From Candidatus Borkfalkia faecipullorum (lineage in GTDB: Bacteria; Bacillota; Clostridia; Christensenellales; Borkfalkiaceae), in the NCBI GenBank assembly GCA_019114245.1, contig DXFX01000072.1:1-32099 (forward strand): a DNA stretch of 32,099 nt, read 5' to 3'. Shown here piece by piece: positions 10,668 through 20,676 of this stretch. Below the pieces are notes generated by a model. That model was not told where the DNA came from and made no database searches. It saw only the letters and a list, made by a program, of their open reading frames with translations. The position numbers and the translations under genes are program-made. Position 1 is the first letter of the stretch, and the number at the start of each line of letters is the position of its first letter.

Positions 10668-13600
10668 TTATTTGTTTTCCTCGCCGTCATTCTTTTCGGA
10701 AGTTTCGGCGGGTTCCTCGGCGGGCTGATCGGATTTCTCCTCGCTCGCTTCGGGGGCGTCTTCCTCGACTTTGTAGATCTCTTCTTCAGAGATCTCATCC
10801 TCTTCGGGGAGAACGTCGTCCTGCATCTCGTCGTGTTCGGATTCTTCCAGCTTGAGCTTGCGGATATAGCGCTTGCGCGTATTGTCGTACATCGGCTTGC
10901 TCTTCTTGGAGCCTTTCACGCGGATGTTGGAAAGCAGTTTACGGATGAGCAGTGCAAGCAAAGTGAAGATGAGTGCCGCCGCAAGAACGATAGAGGAGAC
11001 AAGCAGCCATACGTTGTAGGTAGGTTCGTTTGTCGTATCGTCCTCATCCTCGGTTTCGTCGGAAGAGGAGGAAGTCACGGTCTGTTCGTATGCGGAGTAA
11101 TCTACGTAAGTGTCGTAGTATTCTTCGTTTGCCAGCTGGTACTTGTAATCGAAGTATGCCACCATGTCGCTGTACGTGCTTGCGTCGTAATCGGCGTAAG
11201 GATCGGATTCGTCCGTGCGGCTTGCGTCGTAGGACTTGTAATCGTCATCGTCGTACAGGGAGTAGTGGAAATAGACGAGTTCGTTGTTGTAATCTGCGGG
11301 AGCTTTCTTGTACGCATCCAGCAGTTCGTCCGTGCTGTCAAATCCCTTGGCTTCCGCATAATCGGTGAGGTTTTCGTCGCGCAGGGAATTGAACGAGGAT
11401 TCGTCCAGATCGCTGTAGCTTACCAGGTCGTACACGACAAAGCTGTTTGCTTCGTTTTCGATGCTCGCATCGCGGCTGCCCGACCAGACTTCCAGTCTGT
11501 AATCCTTGGCTTCGCTGCCCGTATGGATAAAGAAACGCACATAGATCCAGTCGGAGATCTCGGTAGCGGAAGGGTTGGTCACCTGGCGGCTGAGCGCCTT
11601 TTCGACGGGTGCGGACTGCAGGAGCGTTCCCGTGAGATCTACTCCTGCGGCGGAGAAATCTTTGACCGCGACGGAAAGTTTGTCATCTTCTTTATAGCGG
11701 TAGTAGGTTCCCTCTTCGTCGGATGCGTAGTAGACGATGTTGCCGTCCGAATCGATCAGGTTCTTGTCGTCGTCCTTGCCGTAGTTGGCGAGGTTCGCGT
11801 AATAAACGCCGCCCGTGTGTGCCTTGGTCGTCGACCACAGCCCGTTGCTCTGCAGATAGAACACCGTGTTCGTCTTGGAAGAGAATGCGTCGTCAGAAGG
11901 ATCGAGGTTGACCACGTTTCCGTCCGCATCGTAGCGATAGGAGATGCCGGAAGAGAAGGTGAGCTGCTCCTGATACTTTCTCTCGCCGAAGTCTTTGTCA
12001 GAGCTGTCGATGAGGTAGACGGTCGCGGTAGCGCCGGGGCTGAGTTTGAGCCGTAGCGTGACCTGCTTGTAAGAAGATGCCGCAATGGAAGTAGAGGAGT
12101 TTGCGATAAATCCGTACGCCTGTTTTGCGGTATTTGCGATCAGGAGAGGCTGGATGCAGTCATCGCCGAACAGATTGTTCCACAGGTCTGCCGCGGTAAC
12201 CGCATCTGCAAAGGTCGGATAGGAGGTGAGAATGTCCATCCAGTTTTCGCTGCCCGTTCCGCCCTTGGTGTAATTTTTCGCGTATTCCTTATTGATGACG
12301 CCTGCCTGCTTGTTGCCGTTGATGCCGTTCTGTGCGTCGTTTTCCAGCTTTTCGCCGCCGACATAGGTGCTGTTTCCGTACACACCTTTATAGTTGCGCA
12401 GGTTGGCAATGCTGTTTTCAATGGATGCGGTATCGGTGTAAGCTTCGGAGTCGAAAGAATTTTCGAGAGTGACGTCGCTGCCTTTGAGGGAAACTTCCAC
12501 AGCGTAGGTGCCCGTCGTCTTGACGTCGTACACGTCCTTGCTCACCTTGGTGTAGGAGAGGTCTGAGAAGGCTGCAAAGCCGGGGGTAAAGGACGTCGTT
12601 TCGGTAAATTCGGAAGTTCCGAAGGAGAACGCAAGCTCAAAGGTAAGCGTGCCGTCCGTCGTGTTGTTTACAAAGAAGAAGCATCTCTGCCAGCCGTCGA
12701 AGATATCTTCGTTGGCTTTCAGGGTTTCCGTGCTCTCTTTCTTGGAGTCGTCCACGAGGTCCACGGTGGTGAGGGTAGTGGTATCCACGGCGCCGATAGA
12801 AGTCTTGGTTTCGCCGTCGATCACGGAGATGGTGGCGCCTGTGCCGCCGCGCAGGTCGGACGTCTTGACCCAGAAGGAGAGGATCATGTACTCGTCCTTG
12901 GCAAGGGAGAAAGCGCTGTCTTCCACGGTTGCGGTGTAGGGCGCGCCCTTGCTGCTGTACAGGAGCAGGACTTTGCTGTCCCCGAAGGGCAGGCTGCTGT
13001 ATTTTTCAAAAGCTTTGGTAAGGACAGTGGAATAGGTGTTGTCGAAATCGGAAACGTTCTTTACGCCCGATTTCACAGTCTTGTCATCCTCGCGGCTGTT
13101 CAGGAAGCTCTCTGCGTAAGGATAGCTCTCAACCGTATATCCGCGCGCGTTTTCGGTATCGGAAACCGTCACGTTTGCGGGGAAGGCGAGCTTGGTCAGC
13201 TGTGTGCTGTCGAGGTTGAGGGAGAATGCGTTGGAGGTGACTTTGTTTGCGTCAAACTTTTGCAGATCGCTGCCGAAGGAGAGGTTGAGGCTGGTCTGCT
13301 GATCGGCGGCCACGTTTTCCGCGATCTCTGTCGCAAAGTCGGCAGATTTCATCACGGTGTATTCCAGGCCGTCAAAGAAGGCGTAGCCCTGAACGTATTC
13401 GAGGTAGTTGGAATTCTGTCCCTCTGCCTGTACGCCCAGTCCCAGCTCCACGCTGAACGTCGTGGTGGCGTAGGGGGAAGCGTTGAGGTAGAAGGTGTAC
13501 TGTTCCCAGCCGTTGTTTTCGGTAACGGAAGAAGTATCGATGTTCTTGACGGTGAGGGGATCCTGCGAAACGCCTCCGACGGTGTTGTTGATCCGGATGT

Positions 13601-14336
13601 AAGCGCCGCGGTTCCCGTTTACGGTCTTGCCGTCGTCAAACGTCATATTGGACGTTTTGACCCAGACGGAGATCTTAGCCGCCGTACCCGCCGCCAGAGT
13701 GATGGTGGAGGAGGTGTAGCGCGCCGCCGTACCCAGCTTGTTGGAACGGTAGTTGTGGAGCATCAGAACGTGCGTTCCGTTCTCCTCGTCCTCCGTTTCC
13801 TTTGCTGCGAAGGGAGTGCCGGGGTTCAGCTTTTCGGCTGCGGCCTTGATCGCGTCCGCATCGGGGTCCTTGTCGTCCTCCGTTGCGGCCTTGGCGAGAT
13901 CCCAACCGGGAATATCGTAGTTGTTGTCGATATCCGTGTAGTAGGGGTCGGGCAGTTCGGCGTCGTCGTCCGCGTCCTTATACTCGGTATAAGTATCGTA
14001 GGCGTCGGAGAACACGCTCCATTTCTTGGAGGTATCCACGATGCCCGATTTTGCCACGGAAGAGCTTGCGCTCACACTGCTGCTGTTGGAGCCGGCAGAG
14101 CTTGTCCAGTTTTCGGGACTGCCGATGAGATATCCTCCGTCGTTGTCGCTGAAGTACTCAAAATTGCCGTTTGCGAATGTTTGCGTATCGGTGCGCGTTT
14201 CCGTCGTGCTCGAATCGTCTTCGGTCGTCTTGTCGGAACAAGCCGTCAGAAAGAACGATCCGGCGGCAACGGTCATCACCGCCGAAAGCATCAGTGTTGC
14301 AATTCTCAGTTTTCTTGTTTGTTTGTTTTTTGCCAT
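10668..14336 (-). CDS. Large surface protein with N-terminal lipobox, repeated beta-sandwich/CBM-like modules, C-terminal TM and acidic cytoplasmic tail
   Basis: MAKNKQTRKLRIATLMLSAVMTVAAGSFFLTAC. Repeated SVWVKTS/SFWVKTSDL...GWEQYTFYLN/GWQRCFFFVNN...YAFFDGLEY/FAAFSDLSY. VWLLVSSIVLAAALIFTLLALLIRKLL then EEDEISEEEIYKVEEDAPEASEE tail. Start moved to MAKNKQ for RBS AAAGGTG. Confidence 0.75.
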   Translation of the reverse strand: MAKNKQTRKLRIATLMLSAVMTVAAGSFFLTACSDKTTEDDSSTTETRTDTQTFANGNFEYFSDNDGGYLIGSPENWTSSAGSNSSSVSASSSVAKSGIVDTSKKWSVFSDAYDTYTEYKDADDDAELPDPYYTDIDNNYDIPGWDLAKAATEDDKDPDADAIKAAAEKLNPGTPFAAKETEDEENGTHVLMLHNYRSNKLGTAARYTSSTITLAAGTAAKISVWVKTSNMTFDDGKTVNGNRGAYIRINNTVGGVSQDPLTVKNIDTSSVTENNGWEQYTFYLNASPYATTTFSVELGLGVQAEGQNSNYLEYVQGYAFFDGLEYTVMKSADFATEIAENVAADQQTSLNLSFGSDLQKFDANKVTSNAFSLNLDSTQLTKLAFPANVTVSDTENARGYTVESYPYAESFLNSREDDKTVKSGVKNVSDFDNTYSTVLTKAFEKYSSLPFGDSKVLLLYSSKGAPYTATVEDSAFSLAKDEYMILSFWVKTSDLRGGTGATISVIDGETKTSIGAVDTTTLTTVDLVDDSKKESTETLKANEDIFDGWQRCFFFVNNTTDGTLTFELAFSFGTSEFTETTSFTPGFAAFSDLSYTKVSKDVYDVKTTGTYAVEVSLKGSDVTLENSFDSEAYTDTASIENSIANLRNYKGVYGNSTYVGGEKLENDAQNGINGNKQAGVINKEYAKNYTKGGTGSENWMDILTSYPTFADAVTAADLWNNLFGDDCIQPLLIANTAKQAYGFIANSSTSIAASSYKQVTLRLKLSPGATATVYLIDSSDKDFGERKYQEQLTFSSGISYRYDADGNVVNLDPSDDAFSSKTNTVFYLQSNGLWSTTKAHTGGVYYANLANYGKDDDKNLIDSDGNIVYYASDEEGTYYRYKEDDKLSVAVKDFSAAGVDLTGTLLQSAPVEKALSRQVTNPSATEISDWIYVRFFIHTGSEAKDYRLEVWSGSRDASIENEANSFVVYDLVSYSDLDESSFNSLRDENLTDYAEAKGFDSTDELLDAYKKAPADYNNELVYFHYSLYDDDDYKSYDASRTDESDPYADYDASTYSDMVAYFDYKYQLANEEYYDTYVDYSAYEQTVTSSSSDETEDEDDTTNEPTYNVWLLVSSIVLAAALIFTLLALLIRKLLSNIRVKGSKKSKPMYDNTRKRYIRKLKLEESEHDEMQDDVLPEEDEISEEEIYKVEEDAPEASEEKSDQPAEEPAETSEKNDGEENK

Positions 14337-14494
14337 AGAACACCTTTTCACTGATCGTAGTGATATTAAAATCGTACTACATTATTTTAATATAAAAGAC
14401 CGCGAAATGCAAGCGATAATGTTGAAAAAAAGATGAAAATCTGATTATTTTTTTTAAACGGCGCAAACTGATACAATAACGGGGAGGGAAGGAT

Positions 14495-15302: not shown

Positions 15303-15376
15303 AACTAATGTATATTCGGCGCAGCGCGCCGCCTGCGGGCGGGGCGCGTTTGCGTGTGATCATCGGAGGAATAGTT

Positions 15377-16663
15377 TTGGCTACATTCGGCAATGGGGTA
15401 CACCCCAAAGACTGCAAAGCGCTTTCGTCGGATGCGAAGATCGGCGTTCTGCCGGAACCCAAACAGGTTTGGATCCCGCTTTCGCAGCACATCGGAAAAC
15501 CCGCCGTTCCCGTCGTGGAAGCGGGGGAGCGCGTCCTGCGCGGGCAGCTGATCGCACGGAAAGAGGGCGGCGTTTCGGCAAACGTGTTTTCTTCTGTTGC
15601 AGGCGTCGTCAAGGGCGTTGTGGGACACATCACGGCATCCGGAAAAAAGCGCGACCACATTCTCATTGAAAACGATTTCACGGACGAAAGCACATCGCTT
15701 CCGCCGCTCTCTTCGCCCACGGCGGAGAGCGTGCTTGTCCGCATAGAAGAGGCGGGCATCGTCGGCATGGGCGGCGCGGGATTTCCCACGCACGTCAAGT
15801 ACAACGTGAACGGCAAGGCGGATATTTTCGTCGTCAACGCGGCGGAGTGCGAACCGTACATCACCTGCGACTACCGCATTCTGCTCGAATACGCGGAGGA
15901 ATTGCTGCGCGGCGTGCGCTATTGTATGCTTGCCTGCGGAGCAAAGAGCGCGGTCATCGGCATAGAAAAGAACAAGCCGAAGGCGATCTCCCTGCTTTCC
16001 TCTCTGTGTAAAGAAGGGGACGTGCGCGTGTGCGCATTGCGCACGCGTTACCCGCAGGGCGCGGAAAAACAGCTGATCTACAGCTGCACGGGCAGGATGG
16101 TCCCCGAGGGCGGACTGCCCATCGCGGCGGGCGTCGTGGTGTCCAACGTGCACACCGTTCTCAGCATTGCGAGAGCGGTGGAAAAGGGGCTGCCCTGTTA
16201 CGAAAGAGTGATGACGGTAAGCGGAAAATGCGTCAAAACTCCTTCCAACCTCTGGGTGAAAAACGGGACCCCCATGCGCGAGATCGCAGCGTACTGCGGC
16301 GCGGATGAGAATTGCGCGCGCATTGTCAGCGGCGGCCCGATGATGGGGGAAGCGGTGTTCTCCCTGAAAGTCTGCACAAGCAAGACGACCTCCAGCCTCC
16401 TGTTTCTGGACAGCACGGAATGCGAAAACAAGAAGGCGTCCGTCTGCATCGGCTGCGGCAGGTGCGTGCAGGCCTGCCCGATGGGACTTTCGCCCACGTT
16501 CATTGAAGATGCGCTGTTCCGCAAGGATTATGAGGAGGCAAAGCGGTACGGAGCGTCCTCCTGTATCGGCTGCGGCTGCTGTTCTTACGTCTGCCCCGCA
16601 AAGCGTTTTCTTGCGCAGAGCGTAAGGCTTGCAAAAAAAATTATAGCAGAGAGGAAAATTTAG
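15377..16663 (+). CDS. rnfC: Rnf electron transport complex subunit C
   Basis: GVHPKDCKALSSDAKI, GMGGAGFPTHVKY, NAAECEPYITCDYRI, two CxxCxxCxxxCP clusters. TTG start at 15377 preceded by GGAGGA. Confidence 0.93.
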   Translation: MATFGNGVHPKDCKALSSDAKIGVLPEPKQVWIPLSQHIGKPAVPVVEAGERVLRGQLIARKEGGVSANVFSSVAGVVKGVVGHITASGKKRDHILIENDFTDESTSLPPLSSPTAESVLVRIEEAGIVGMGGAGFPTHVKYNVNGKADIFVVNAAECEPYITCDYRILLEYAEELLRGVRYCMLACGAKSAVIGIEKNKPKAISLLSSLCKEGDVRVCALRTRYPQGAEKQLIYSCTGRMVPEGGLPIAAGVVVSNVHTVLSIARAVEKGLPCYERVMTVSGKCVKTPSNLWVKNGTPMREIAAYCGADENCARIVSGGPMMGEAVFSLKVCTSKTTSSLLFLDSTECENKKASVCIGCGRCVQACPMGLSPTFIEDALFRKDYEEAKRYGASSCIGCGCCSYVCPAKRFLAQSVRLAKKIIAERKI

Positions 16664-16664
16664 C

Positions 16665-18089
16665 ATGGCGGAGATCTCTAATTATAAAGTTGCGGCTTCG
16701 CCGCACAAACTGGACAATTCAGACACCCGCCGCGTGATGCTGGACGTGCTCATCGCGCTCCTGCCCTGTCTTGTCTGCGGCGTCGTCTTTTTCGGCCTGT
16801 ACGCGTTTTTGCTCGTTTTTCTGACAACGTTGACCTGTTTTGTGAGCGAACAGCTGTACAACCTCATCCGTAAAAAGCCCTTTACGTTTGATTTGTCCGC
16901 GCTGGTCACGGGCGTGATTTTAGGGCTGAACCTTCCGCCCCGCGCGCCGTGGTATCTCGCGGTGATCGGCGGCGTGTTTGCCATCATCATCGTAAAGATG
17001 CTGTTCGGCGGGCTCGGCAAAAACTTTGCCAACCCCGCGGCGACGGCGCGTGTGTTCCTGCTCCTCGCCTATTCTTCTTCCATGCTCCAGTACATCGGTG
17101 CGGACGTGGGCGGAAACATCCTTTCCACGGACATCGTCACCGCGCCCACCTATCTCAGCGGCGGCGTCTCCGCACTGCAGGGGAGCTTCTGGGGCGTGAG
17201 CGGATTCGGCGGATATGCTTTGCAACTGCTGTTCGGCGTCGTCGGCGGCAGCATCGGCGAAACTTGTAAAGTTGCCGTGCTTGCGGGCGGAGTATATTTG
17301 TGTGCGCGCAAGGTGATCGACTGGCGCATTCCCGTCGTATATTTGCTCACTTCTGCCACGTTCTTTCTCTTTTATTATCAAAGTGCGGAAGAGATGGTTT
17401 TGCAGCTGCTTTCGGGCGGACTGATGTTCGGCGCCGTGTTCATGGCGACGGACTACGCCACTTCCCCCAAATGGAAATACAACCGCGTTCTGTACGCGAT
17501 CGGGCTGGGGCTCATCACGGGCGTCATTCGCTGTTTCGGTTCTTATCCGGAAGGGACGTCGCTCGCAATCCTGTTCATGAACCTGCTCGTTCCCGTGATG
17601 GACAAGTACATTCTGCCCGTGCGGTTCGGTCAGCTTACAAAGGTGGGCAAACCCAAGCCGCAGGTGATGAAGTGGACGATGCGTATTGTCAGTCTTGTGC
17701 TTGTCCTTGCCATTGCGGCCGGTTCACTCGCATTCTGCCTGCGTCCGAGGACGTACGAATATATTCTCGATGCGCGCAGGGAAGAAGGAGCATATGTCGT
17801 GGAGATCGGCGGAACCTTCAATATCGGCGGCTGGCCGCAGGAAAGGGAATACACGGTCACGGTGGATGAAAAGAGTATGACGATTTCCGACATTGTTGCT
17901 GTCAAGGAAAATCAGTACGGCTATCTGGCAGAATTGTCCTTATTTATCGGGAAAACGCGGCACGAAGTGGCTACGCTTTCAAATCTCTCCACGGATTCTG
18001 AGTTTTCAGCGACGGTGAGCAATACCGCTTTGCGGGATATGCTGGTGGAATGTTTTGATTATATCCAAAGAGAAATGGAGGGGAATTGA
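16665..18089 (+). CDS. rnfD: Rnf complex subunit D with unusual C-terminal extension (FMN_bind-like)
   Basis: SPHKLDNSDTRRVMLDVLIALLP, FGGLGKNFANPAATARVFL, VFMATDYATSPK, then an extra TM (VSLVLVLAIAAGSLAFCL) and about 115 aa of extracytoplasmic tail. Confidence 0.9.
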   Translation: MAEISNYKVAASPHKLDNSDTRRVMLDVLIALLPCLVCGVVFFGLYAFLLVFLTTLTCFVSEQLYNLIRKKPFTFDLSALVTGVILGLNLPPRAPWYLAVIGGVFAIIIVKMLFGGLGKNFANPAATARVFLLLAYSSSMLQYIGADVGGNILSTDIVTAPTYLSGGVSALQGSFWGVSGFGGYALQLLFGVVGGSIGETCKVAVLAGGVYLCARKVIDWRIPVVYLLTSATFFLFYYQSAEEMVLQLLSGGLMFGAVFMATDYATSPKWKYNRVLYAIGLGLITGVIRCFGSYPEGTSLAILFMNLLVPVMDKYILPVRFGQLTKVGKPKPQVMKWTMRIVSLVLVLAIAAGSLAFCLRPRTYEYILDARREEGAYVVEIGGTFNIGGWPQEREYTVTVDEKSMTISDIVAVKENQYGYLAELSLFIGKTRHEVATLSNLSTDSEFSATVSNTALRDMLVECFDYIQREMEGN

Positions 18090-18090
18090 T

Positions 18091-18636
18091 ATGGATAAAA
18101 CAAAATTTCGCTCCATGTTGCAAGGCGTCCTCGTCCTTGCGGTGATCGCCCTGTGCAGCGGGCTGCTGCTGGGCTTTTTCAACATGATCACTTACGTCGA
18201 TCCTCTGCAGAGCGCATACGACAGGTTTGCCGAGGACACGGGCGCGACCTTCAGTAAAATGACCGACCCCGACGGCGAAGAGTATGAAAACGGTTTGGTG
18301 CTGTACTATGCTCTTTCCGACGACGGAAAGTACCATGCCTTCCTTGCTTCTGGCAAGGGCGGCTACGGCGGCGACGTGCAGGTGTACGTCTACGTGTCGG
18401 ACAACAAGATCACGAAGGCGGTTCTTGGTGAAAACGCGGAGACGCTGTGGGGAACCTTTGAAGAAAACTTCTTCGATCAGTTCATCGGCATCGACGTCAC
18501 GCAAAAGACGAGCTTCCTGCCTTCGGACGTGACGACGAGTTCCACGGCCAAACTGTCCATCCAGGCGGTGAGCAGGGCCATCGACGCCGTTATGACCTAT
18601 TACAATCAGAATGTGGGAGGGGAGAACAATGGATAA
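18091..18636 (+). CDS. rnfG: Rnf complex subunit G (FMN-binding domain)
   Basis: Position between rnfD and rnfE, single N-terminal TM, YGGDVQVYVYVSDNKITKAVLGENAET...F, SDVTTSSTAKLSIQAVSRAI. RBS GGAGGGG. Confidence 0.85.
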   Translation: MDKTKFRSMLQGVLVLAVIALCSGLLLGFFNMITYVDPLQSAYDRFAEDTGATFSKMTDPDGEEYENGLVLYYALSDDGKYHAFLASGKGGYGGDVQVYVYVSDNKITKAVLGENAETLWGTFEENFFDQFIGIDVTQKTSFLPSDVTTSSTAKLSIQAVSRAIDAVMTYYNQNVGGENNG

Positions 18637-19288
18637 ACGCAAGTTTAAAGAGACGCTTCTGGGCGGACTCATCAAAAACAACCCCACCTTTGTGCTGGTG
18701 CTGGGGACCTGTCCCACCATCGCCATGACGACGTCGCTGTTCCAGGCGTTTGCCATGGGCGTGGCGACGACTTTCGTGCTCATCTTTTCCAATTTGTTTG
18801 TCAGCCTTCTGCGCGGGATCATTCCCGACAAGGTGCGCATTCCCTGTTACATTGTCATCATTTCCACCTTTGTCATCATCGTGCAGATGGTGATGCGCAG
18901 GTATCTGCCCGAACTGTACACGACCATGCAGGCGTTTATCGCGCTCATCGTCGTCAACTGTATCATTCTGGCGCGCGCGGAAAGCTTTGCTTCCTGCAAC
19001 AAGCCCCTTTACAGTATGCTGGACGGCGTTTCCATGGGCCTTGGCTTTACCTGTGCGCTCTGCCTCATCGGCATCGTGCGCGAATTTCTCGCGGGCGGCT
19101 CCTTTGCGGGCTTTGCCATTCCCGGATTCCCCGCCATGCAGGGTGCGGGCGCAAGCGCGTTCGGGTTTATCACCTTCGGGTGCATGATGGCGCTTTTCAA
19201 TTTTGTCATTCAGAAAGTCAACGAGCGCAAGGCGCGCATGAAAGCGGCGAGCCTTCCCCTTACCGCTCAGCTTGAGGAGGTGAAATAA
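18629..19288 (+). CDS. rnfE: Rnf complex subunit E
   Basis: GGLIKNNPTFVLVLGTCPTIAMTTS, VVNCIILARAESFAS. Overlaps the rnfG stop. Confidence 0.95.
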   Translation: MDKRKFKETLLGGLIKNNPTFVLVLGTCPTIAMTTSLFQAFAMGVATTFVLIFSNLFVSLLRGIIPDKVRIPCYIVIISTFVIIVQMVMRRYLPELYTTMQAFIALIVVNCIILARAESFASCNKPLYSMLDGVSMGLGFTCALCLIGIVREFLAGGSFAGFAIPGFPAMQGAGASAFGFITFGCMMALFNFVIQKVNERKARMKAASLPLTAQLEEVK

Positions 19289-19869
19289 TGGCTACCGTCA
19301 TTTCTCTGATGTTCGCGGCGGTCATTTCGCAGAACATCGTTCTTGCACAGTATCAGGGCATCTGTCCCTTCCTCGGCGTTTCCAAAAAGATGTCCAGCGC
19401 GGCGGGCATGGGCTTTGCCGTCATCTTCGTCATGGCGGTGTCTTCGGTGTTCACGTGGCTGGTTTACAACCTCATTCTTCTCCCGCTCGGCATCGACTAT
19501 CTCTATACCATGGCGTTTATTCTCGTCATCGCCAGTCTCGTGCAGCTGCTGGAAATGATCCTCAAACGCTTTTCTCCCACGCTGTACAGCGCGCTGGGCG
19601 TGTATCTGCCCCTCATCACCACCAACTGCGCCATTCTCGGCACGGCAAACAGCACGGTGGTGTTCAACAACTATCCCTTCCTGCAGGCGTTTGCCGTCTC
19701 TGTGGCGACGGGCGTGGGCTTCCTCCTCGCCATCTGCCTGCTGGCGGGCGTGCGGTTAAAGACGGATAAGGCGGACATCCCGCAGTGTTTCAAAGGCTTC
19801 CCCATCACGCTGGTTTCGGCGGCGATCATGGCGATGGCGTTTGCGGGATTCTCCGGGATCCTCGCGTAA
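19288..19869 (+). CDS. rnfA: Rnf complex subunit A
   Basis: SQNIVLAQYQGICPFLGVSKK, PLITTNCAILGTA. Confidence 0.95.
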   Translation: MATVISLMFAAVISQNIVLAQYQGICPFLGVSKKMSSAAGMGFAVIFVMAVSSVFTWLVYNLILLPLGIDYLYTMAFILVIASLVQLLEMILKRFSPTLYSALGVYLPLITTNCAILGTANSTVVFNNYPFLQAFAVSVATGVGFLLAICLLAGVRLKTDKADIPQCFKGFPITLVSAAIMAMAFAGFSGILA

Positions 19870-19881
19870 GGAGGGCAGACG

Positions 19882-20676
19882 ATGCAACCGGTTTTACAAA
19901 TTCTTCTGGCGGGCGGGATCATGCTCGCCATCGCGGTGGTGTTCGGGATCATTCTCGTCATCTGTTCCAATGTCTTTGCGGTCAGACGGGACGAGCGCAT
20001 CGACCGCGTGGAATCTCTTCTGGCAAAATCCAACTGCGGCGGCTGCGGCAAAGCGGGCTGCGCGCAGTTTGCGGAGGCGCTCGTCAAGGGAGAGGTAAAA
20101 CTCTCCGATTGCCGCGCCACGCCTGCCGCCAACAAGCAGAAGATCGCAGAGATCCTTGGCGGCGGAGACATCGGGGAAGAGACGGTCGCCGTCGTGCATT
20201 GCAACGGCGGGGACGCCTGCTACAATAAGTACGATTATCAGGGCTACGGCGACTGCGCTTCCTGCGAAATGCTCGCGGGCGGCGTGAAGGCCTGCCCCGT
20301 GGGCTGTATCGGCAAAAAGACGTGCGTCAACGTCTGTCCTTACGGCGCCGTTTCCGTGGGGGACGAGGGATATTCCGCCGTCGATAAGGAAAAGTGCGTT
20401 TCCTGCGGCGTCTGTATTCAGAACTGCCCCAAAAATCTCATTTCCCGCATTCCCAAATCGGCAAAGGTGTACATTGCCTGTTCCAATCACGGCAAGGGCA
20501 AGGACGTCATGGAGCTTTGCAAGCACGGCTGTATCGGGTGCGGGATCTGTGAAAAGACCTGTCCCGAGGGCGCCATTGCCATGAAGGACGGCCTGCCCGA
20601 GATCGACTATTCCAAGTGCGTGGGATGCCTGAAATGCGTAGAAAAATGCCCGCGCAAGTGTATTAAGGAGCACTGA
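19882..20676 (+). CDS. rnfB: Rnf complex subunit B (polyferredoxin)
   Basis: LLAKSNCGGCGKAGCAQFAEAL plus multiple CxxCxxCxxxCP clusters. Confidence 0.95.
   Translation: MQPVLQILLAGGIMLAIAVVFGIILVICSNVFAVRRDERIDRVESLLAKSNCGGCGKAGCAQFAEALVKGEVKLSDCRATPAANKQKIAEILGGGDIGEETVAVVHCNGGDACYNKYDYQGYGDCASCEMLAGGVKACPVGCIGKKTCVNVCPYGAVSVGDEGYSAVDKEKCVSCGVCIQNCPKNLISRIPKSAKVYIACSNHGKGKDVMELCKHGCIGCGICEKTCPEGAIAMKDGLPEIDYSKCVGCLKCVEKCPRKCIKEH

Follow-up and report, generated by a model that had tools for sequence, protein, structure and literature searches.

In anaerobes, the Rnf complex is central to energy conservation, and it normally carries one covalent FMN each on RnfD and RnfG. The window analysed here, the whole stretch of 32,099 nucleotides from Candidatus Borkfalkia faecipullorum, encodes an RnfD of 474 aa. 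A first-pass annotation had noted an extra transmembrane segment and a soluble tail after the core of this protein, and both were located as it had quoted them, the tail at 17742-18086. The locus raises the question of what the tail is and what it would add to Rnf. Electrons are passed in Rnf from ferredoxin to RnfB, the RnfA/E cluster, the FMN of the mobile RnfG, RnfD, RnfC and finally NAD+, and the carriers of RnfD on this route are FMN and riboflavin (PMC12174285).

Results

The rnf operon and the membrane core of RnfD

The operon has the order rnfC-rnfD-rnfG-rnfE-rnfA-rnfB and is located at 15308-20676 on the forward strand. Profile matches identified rnfC (15308-16663), the Rnf-Nqr family genes rnfE (18617-19288) and rnfA (19288-19869), and rnfB (19882-20676), which encodes the multi-cluster ferredoxin subunit. 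The rnfD coding sequence (16665-18089), defined by the ORF list and profile matches, consists of a core and a C-terminal extension. Residues 9-322 (16689-17630) matched the RnfD/NqrB family PF03116 with 334.7 bits over model positions 2-296 of 296 and thus form a full-length membrane core. The rnfD model TIGR01946 matched aa 12-323 with 262.3 bits against a cut-off of 207. The flavin site of the core, assigned from RnfD alignment A2, is DIVTAPT (aa 156-162; 17130-17150) with Thr162 as acceptor. Thr162 was invariant and Asp156 nearly invariant in this alignment, and the G-A part of the motif is off consensus in the window. DIVTAPT was also present at the core site of several congeneric RnfDs and D..TGAT in others, the Thr being invariant. 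Near the operon, the reverse strand (10668-14351) encodes a protein of 1227 aa that is predicted to be secreted and lipoprotein-like; it carries a membrane helix at its C-terminus and an acidic tail.

Predicted topology of the extension

RnfD and NqrB have 10 membrane helices (PMC12174285), and the C-terminal residues of RnfD are located in the cytoplasm in the Rnf complex of C. tetanomorphum (PMC9588780). At the end of the core of the window RnfD, the sequence contains a basic loop, RFGQLTKVGKPKPQVMKWTMR (17619-17684), with six K/R and no D/E, which is predicted to be cytoplasmic. Hydropathy and helix prediction placed an extra (11th) transmembrane helix at aa 333-358 (about 17661-17738), and the stretch IVSLVLVLAIAAGSLAFCL (aa 341-359) is strongly hydrophobic, with a Kyte-Doolittle value of 2.69. 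Because one helix is added, after a basic loop, to a core with a cytoplasmic C-terminus, the tail is predicted to lie outside. The added helix would bring the C-terminus of RnfD from the cytoplasmic to the outer face, and this prediction agrees with the outer-face placement proposed at first pass.

Conservation and flavinylation-type motif of the tail

The soluble tail, predicted to be extracytoplasmic, comprises a single domain of 115 aa (aa 360-474; 17742-18086). It contains the flavinylation-type motif DSEFSAT (aa 444-450; 17994-18014) with Thr450 as the predicted acceptor. Comparison of the window tail with those of two sister species gave dN/dS values of 0.03-0.06, at or near the level of the core, and the tail is under strong purifying selection. 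An origin of the tail by chance or as a frame artefact was ruled out by these values together with its distribution in the genus.

The motif for flavin attachment by ApbE is D-x-x-[S/T]-G-A-[S/T]; attachment is abolished when the acceptor is lost and lowered when the G or A is changed (PMC12052999). DSEFSAT deviates from it at two fixed positions, with F for S/T and S for G. Motif conservation was rechecked with a profile from which the motif had been left out, and which located 57 domains in 28 RnfDs. D-x-x-x-[S/G]-A-T was present in 56 of these 57, so the conservation of D..AT is not a product of a motif-based search. Mean column identity across the tail-domain alignment was 53%. Among the 56 motif-bearing domains, 43 have S for G and 14, the window tail included, have F, L or V for S/T; the F of the window was seen in seven. 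Ordinary clostridial RnfGs with S at the G position also occur (DAISSAT, DAITSAT). The third of five tail domains in L124 (GDPNISAVNITLK) was the sole domain found without the acceptor Thr. ApbE is encoded in the window genome.

Relationship of the tail to FMN_bind and RnfG

No significant match was obtained when the window tail alone was searched against Pfam and NCBIfam profiles. Three of eight whole congeneric RnfDs tested contained both PF03116 and FMN_bind in one protein at the cut-off of 22 bits, with FMN_bind scores of 31.0 bits (E 4.1e-7) in L045, 22.4 in L046 and 22.0 in L042. Nine of 30 single tail domains matched FMN_bind at E values up to 1, the best being 2.7e-4. When the tail profile was aligned to RnfG by hhalign, an E value of 8.3e-7 was obtained over 91 columns, and DSEFSAT was aligned to the flavin motif of RnfG. 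The score of 44.6 compares with 9.2 for the reversed profile and 19.2 for the best of 60 column permutations. Most of the signal is held by the half with the motif and helix, which scored 33.8; the first 79 residues alone scored 19.3. In whole-genome searches the tail profile also matched RnfG of the same genomes (E about 1e-4 to 1e-3) and, at the motif end, secreted FMN_bind proteins, one of them with a canonical DAISGAT.

The AlphaFold model of the tail (pLDDT 85.9) shows a four-stranded sheet and a terminal helix (residues 88-112 of the domain; 18003-18077) beginning at the motif, with the acceptor Thr at the start of the helix. The acceptor of RnfG is likewise located at the start of its terminal helix (PMC9588780). 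A Foldseek search of the model against the PDB gave nothing at E < 0.001. NqrC chains were found at ranks 4, 20, 22, 42 and 50 among unrelated folds, in full-length alignments with TM scores of about 0.43-0.48 and non-significant E values of 0.09-0.8. A PDB profile search with the domain alignment gave one low-complexity match, which was judged to be due to chance. Because the Foldseek matches are weak, the fold assignment relies mainly on sequence. By these computations the tail appears homologous to FMN_bind/RnfG, as the first-pass annotation had suspected: sister domains match Pfam, the hhalign alignment is in register, D...AT is kept and the acceptor Thr is placed as expected in the model. 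On the structural side, the helix at the motif fits a kinship with FMN_bind and NqrC, and the Foldseek matches to NqrC did not reach significance.

Distribution and tandem copies

A profile search found the tail domain in 37 of 40 Candidatus Borkfalkia genomes, including all 14 of high quality. The tail, first seen in one genome, is thus a genus-wide feature, and its architecture varies from one to five head-to-tail domains of about 118 aa per RnfD. Two to five were present in 19 of the 28 congeneric RnfDs examined; the window RnfD carries a single copy. Among named genomes, the nearest relatives are Ca. B. avistercoris (L040) and Ca. B. faecigallinarum (L042), in the order Christensenellales. 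In a tree of 56 domains most grouped by position. The membrane-proximal unit was widely shared, and the further units were split into no fewer than two distinct groups; last-position units bearing TGAT motifs made up one, and middle and last units another. The window tail was placed among the single-copy tails of sister species. Some copies are recent, as they are nearly identical, such as repeats 2 and 3 of L037/L117.

Elsewhere in the family and class, tail-less RnfDs have frames of about 310-410 aa, apart from a few exceptions. In the family-wide survey long frames due to tails were confined to this genus, and other genera had frames of about 314-435 aa. The longer frames of G029, G050, G545, G539 and G567 were rejected as tails, being upstream or N-terminal extensions; that of G029 (498 aa) is lengthened upstream rather than C-terminally. 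A profile search of 396 genomes of the order found no other owner of this tail type outside the genus. The outside matches were only L136 and L137, which are weakly similar secreted FMN_bind-like proteins, and L135, a MutL-like protein judged to be a chance match; the tail type is therefore confined to the genus in this sample of the order. In L005, from a related genus, RnfD (1417-2505) has an extra C-terminal membrane helix and no soluble domain, and an ordinary rnfG is kept. This RnfD is possibly an intermediate or a relic.

The separate rnfG

A separate rnfG (18091-18636, forward strand) is kept beside the tail. Its FMN_bind domain (18361-18591; 25.3 bits) was the sole Pfam FMN_bind match in the window genome. 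The flavin site, DVTTSST (18526-18546), is non-canonical and is followed by two extra residues, compared with the expected DxxSGATxSS. RnfG of L123 has a similar site (DITTSST), and the RnfGs of the sisters L031 and L032 are canonical. Free RnfG is retained in Borkfalkia, usually with a canonical flavin site.

The window rnfG is mosaic in its 3' two-thirds (18281-18627). Its nucleotide identity to the sister L032, about 0.9 at first, is 0.35-0.7 across the soluble domain, and a value of about 0.9 is reached again in rnfE. The window RnfG is 56-59% identical to those of its sisters, with the other Rnf subunits at 88-98%, and 72% identical to the RnfG of L123, with which it has the odd motif in common.

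Discussion

Comparison with known systems

Like RnfG and NqrC (PF04205), the tail is predicted to be an extracytoplasmic domain preceded by a single membrane helix, and its antiparallel sheet leads into a terminal helix beginning at a D-x-x-x-x-A-T acceptor motif. It differs from them in being attached to the C-terminus of RnfD in addition to RnfG, and in lacking the long stalk of RnfG, as its first strand begins about 8 residues past the helix in the model. It also has mostly SAT instead of GAT, and occurs in one to five tandem copies. Multi-flavinylated proteins and RnfGs have tandem FMN_bind-type domains outside the membrane, some of them encoded in RNF clusters, and a role in long-distance electron transport or in delivery to a second acceptor has been proposed for them (PMC8238504, PMC10339131, PMC11334425). 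Multi-flavinylated RnfGs were proposed to give Rnf a second path (PMC8238504). In those systems it is RnfG or separate secreted proteins that bear the additional domains, whereas in Borkfalkia RnfD bears them. Most Borkfalkia-type tails score below Pfam detection and would therefore go unnoticed in a census based on Pfam.

In a different clostridial family, several genera have RnfD-RnfG gene fusions, seven of which were verified (L143, L148-L152 and L154). They resemble the Borkfalkia protein in being single polypeptides in which an RnfD core is followed by a membrane helix and then by FMN_bind. However, a complete RnfG is fused in them and no separate rnfG lies between rnfD and rnfE, whereas in Borkfalkia rnfG is kept and the tail, a domain distinct from RnfG, is shorter. 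NQR/RNF-like proteins also combine an NqrB/RnfD core with an extra C-terminal redox domain, but theirs is a cytosolic NAD-binding domain (PF00175) and not an extracytoplasmic FMN_bind-like one (PMC8238504). The Methanosarcina RNF with MmcA, as far as it is described where cited in PMC12174285, is similar in that added redox carriers let electrons leave to other acceptors, and different in using a multiheme cytochrome subunit instead of covalent flavin domains.

Multi-flavinylated proteins, multi-flavinylated RnfGs and NQR/RNF-like proteins with cytosolic extensions have thus already been described. We came across no account of FMN_bind domains on RnfD, or of Borkfalkia with Rnf, in the literature searched, supplementary tables and subscription papers aside. 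The Borkfalkia RnfD tail is real, conserved and genus-wide; its function is what we infer.

Possible function of the tail

We favour, with moderate confidence, the reading that RnfD bears an extracytoplasmic, RnfG/NqrC-type FMN_bind domain as its tail, providing a tethered auxiliary flavin that serves as a relay, buffer or side exit. The 11th transmembrane helix would fuse this domain to RnfD at the outer face, and the ApbE of the genome would attach FMN at Thr450 and, in the sister domains, at the equivalent Thr. The tail would then be flavinylated, though perhaps at lower efficiency in the window species. One or more tethered flavins would be positioned close to the mobile RnfG and to the FMN of RnfD on the outer face, where RnfG swings, and could exchange electrons with the flavins of both as an auxiliary relay or buffer. 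In multi-domain species they might form a short flavin wire that takes electrons from Rnf to a cell-wall or extracellular acceptor, and the normal route to NAD+ through RnfG, RnfD and RnfC would be kept alongside. We put forward only tentatively the further idea of a branched Rnf, in which one to five covalent FMNs, chained on the outer face of RnfD, would pass electrons from the flavins of RnfG and RnfD to cell-wall or external acceptors; the ferredoxin:NAD+ pump would thereby double as an extracellular electron outlet. No dedicated extracellular acceptor was identified.

The non-canonical RnfG site of the window, DVTTSST where DxxSGAT is expected, and the DIVTAPT of the RnfD core speak for another reading. 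The tail could be a second tethered shuttle of the RnfG type, working between the RnfA/E cluster and the RnfD flavin in parallel to RnfG and offering no exit, which would raise turnover or cover for a weakened RnfG site. RnfG is a mobile switch with small contacts (PMC9588780, PMC12174285), and the fusions that replace free RnfG in another clostridial family suggest that RnfG is able to work tethered to RnfD. But Borkfalkia keeps a free RnfG that is usually canonical, and up to five tandem domains in varying number are hard to fit into one shuttle position, and we consider this explanation unlikely.

Whether the domain holds a flavin at all had been left open at first pass, where a flavin-less docking domain was offered on equal terms. 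The FMN_bind-like part of that proposal stood. A domain of FMN_bind origin that holds no flavin and serves for docking or structure, for instance to position RnfG or anchor the complex to the cell wall, is less likely than was then allowed, since DSEFSAT keeps D, A and T. It would agree with the two off-consensus positions of this motif, the loss of Thr in one L124 domain and the weak similarity to the NqrC fold. It is at odds with the presence of ApbE in the genome and with the retention of D, A and T in 56 of 57 domains found by the motif-free profile, against a mean column identity of 53%, and we regard it as distinctly doubtful. Convergence of the D...SAT motif in an unrelated alpha+beta extracytoplasmic domain would be in keeping with the lack of a significant match in the PDB by sequence or fold. 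It is nevertheless highly improbable: sister domains score over the Pfam FMN_bind cut-off, the hhalign match to RnfG stands against its controls, and RnfG is recovered by the tail profile in whole-genome searches.

If the auxiliary-flavin reading is true, the predicted number of covalent flavins per Rnf complex rises from two to up to seven. Similar tails may be overlooked elsewhere, because most such domains escape Pfam. Borkfalkia would then offer a compact natural test of whether flavin chains move electrons away from Rnf.
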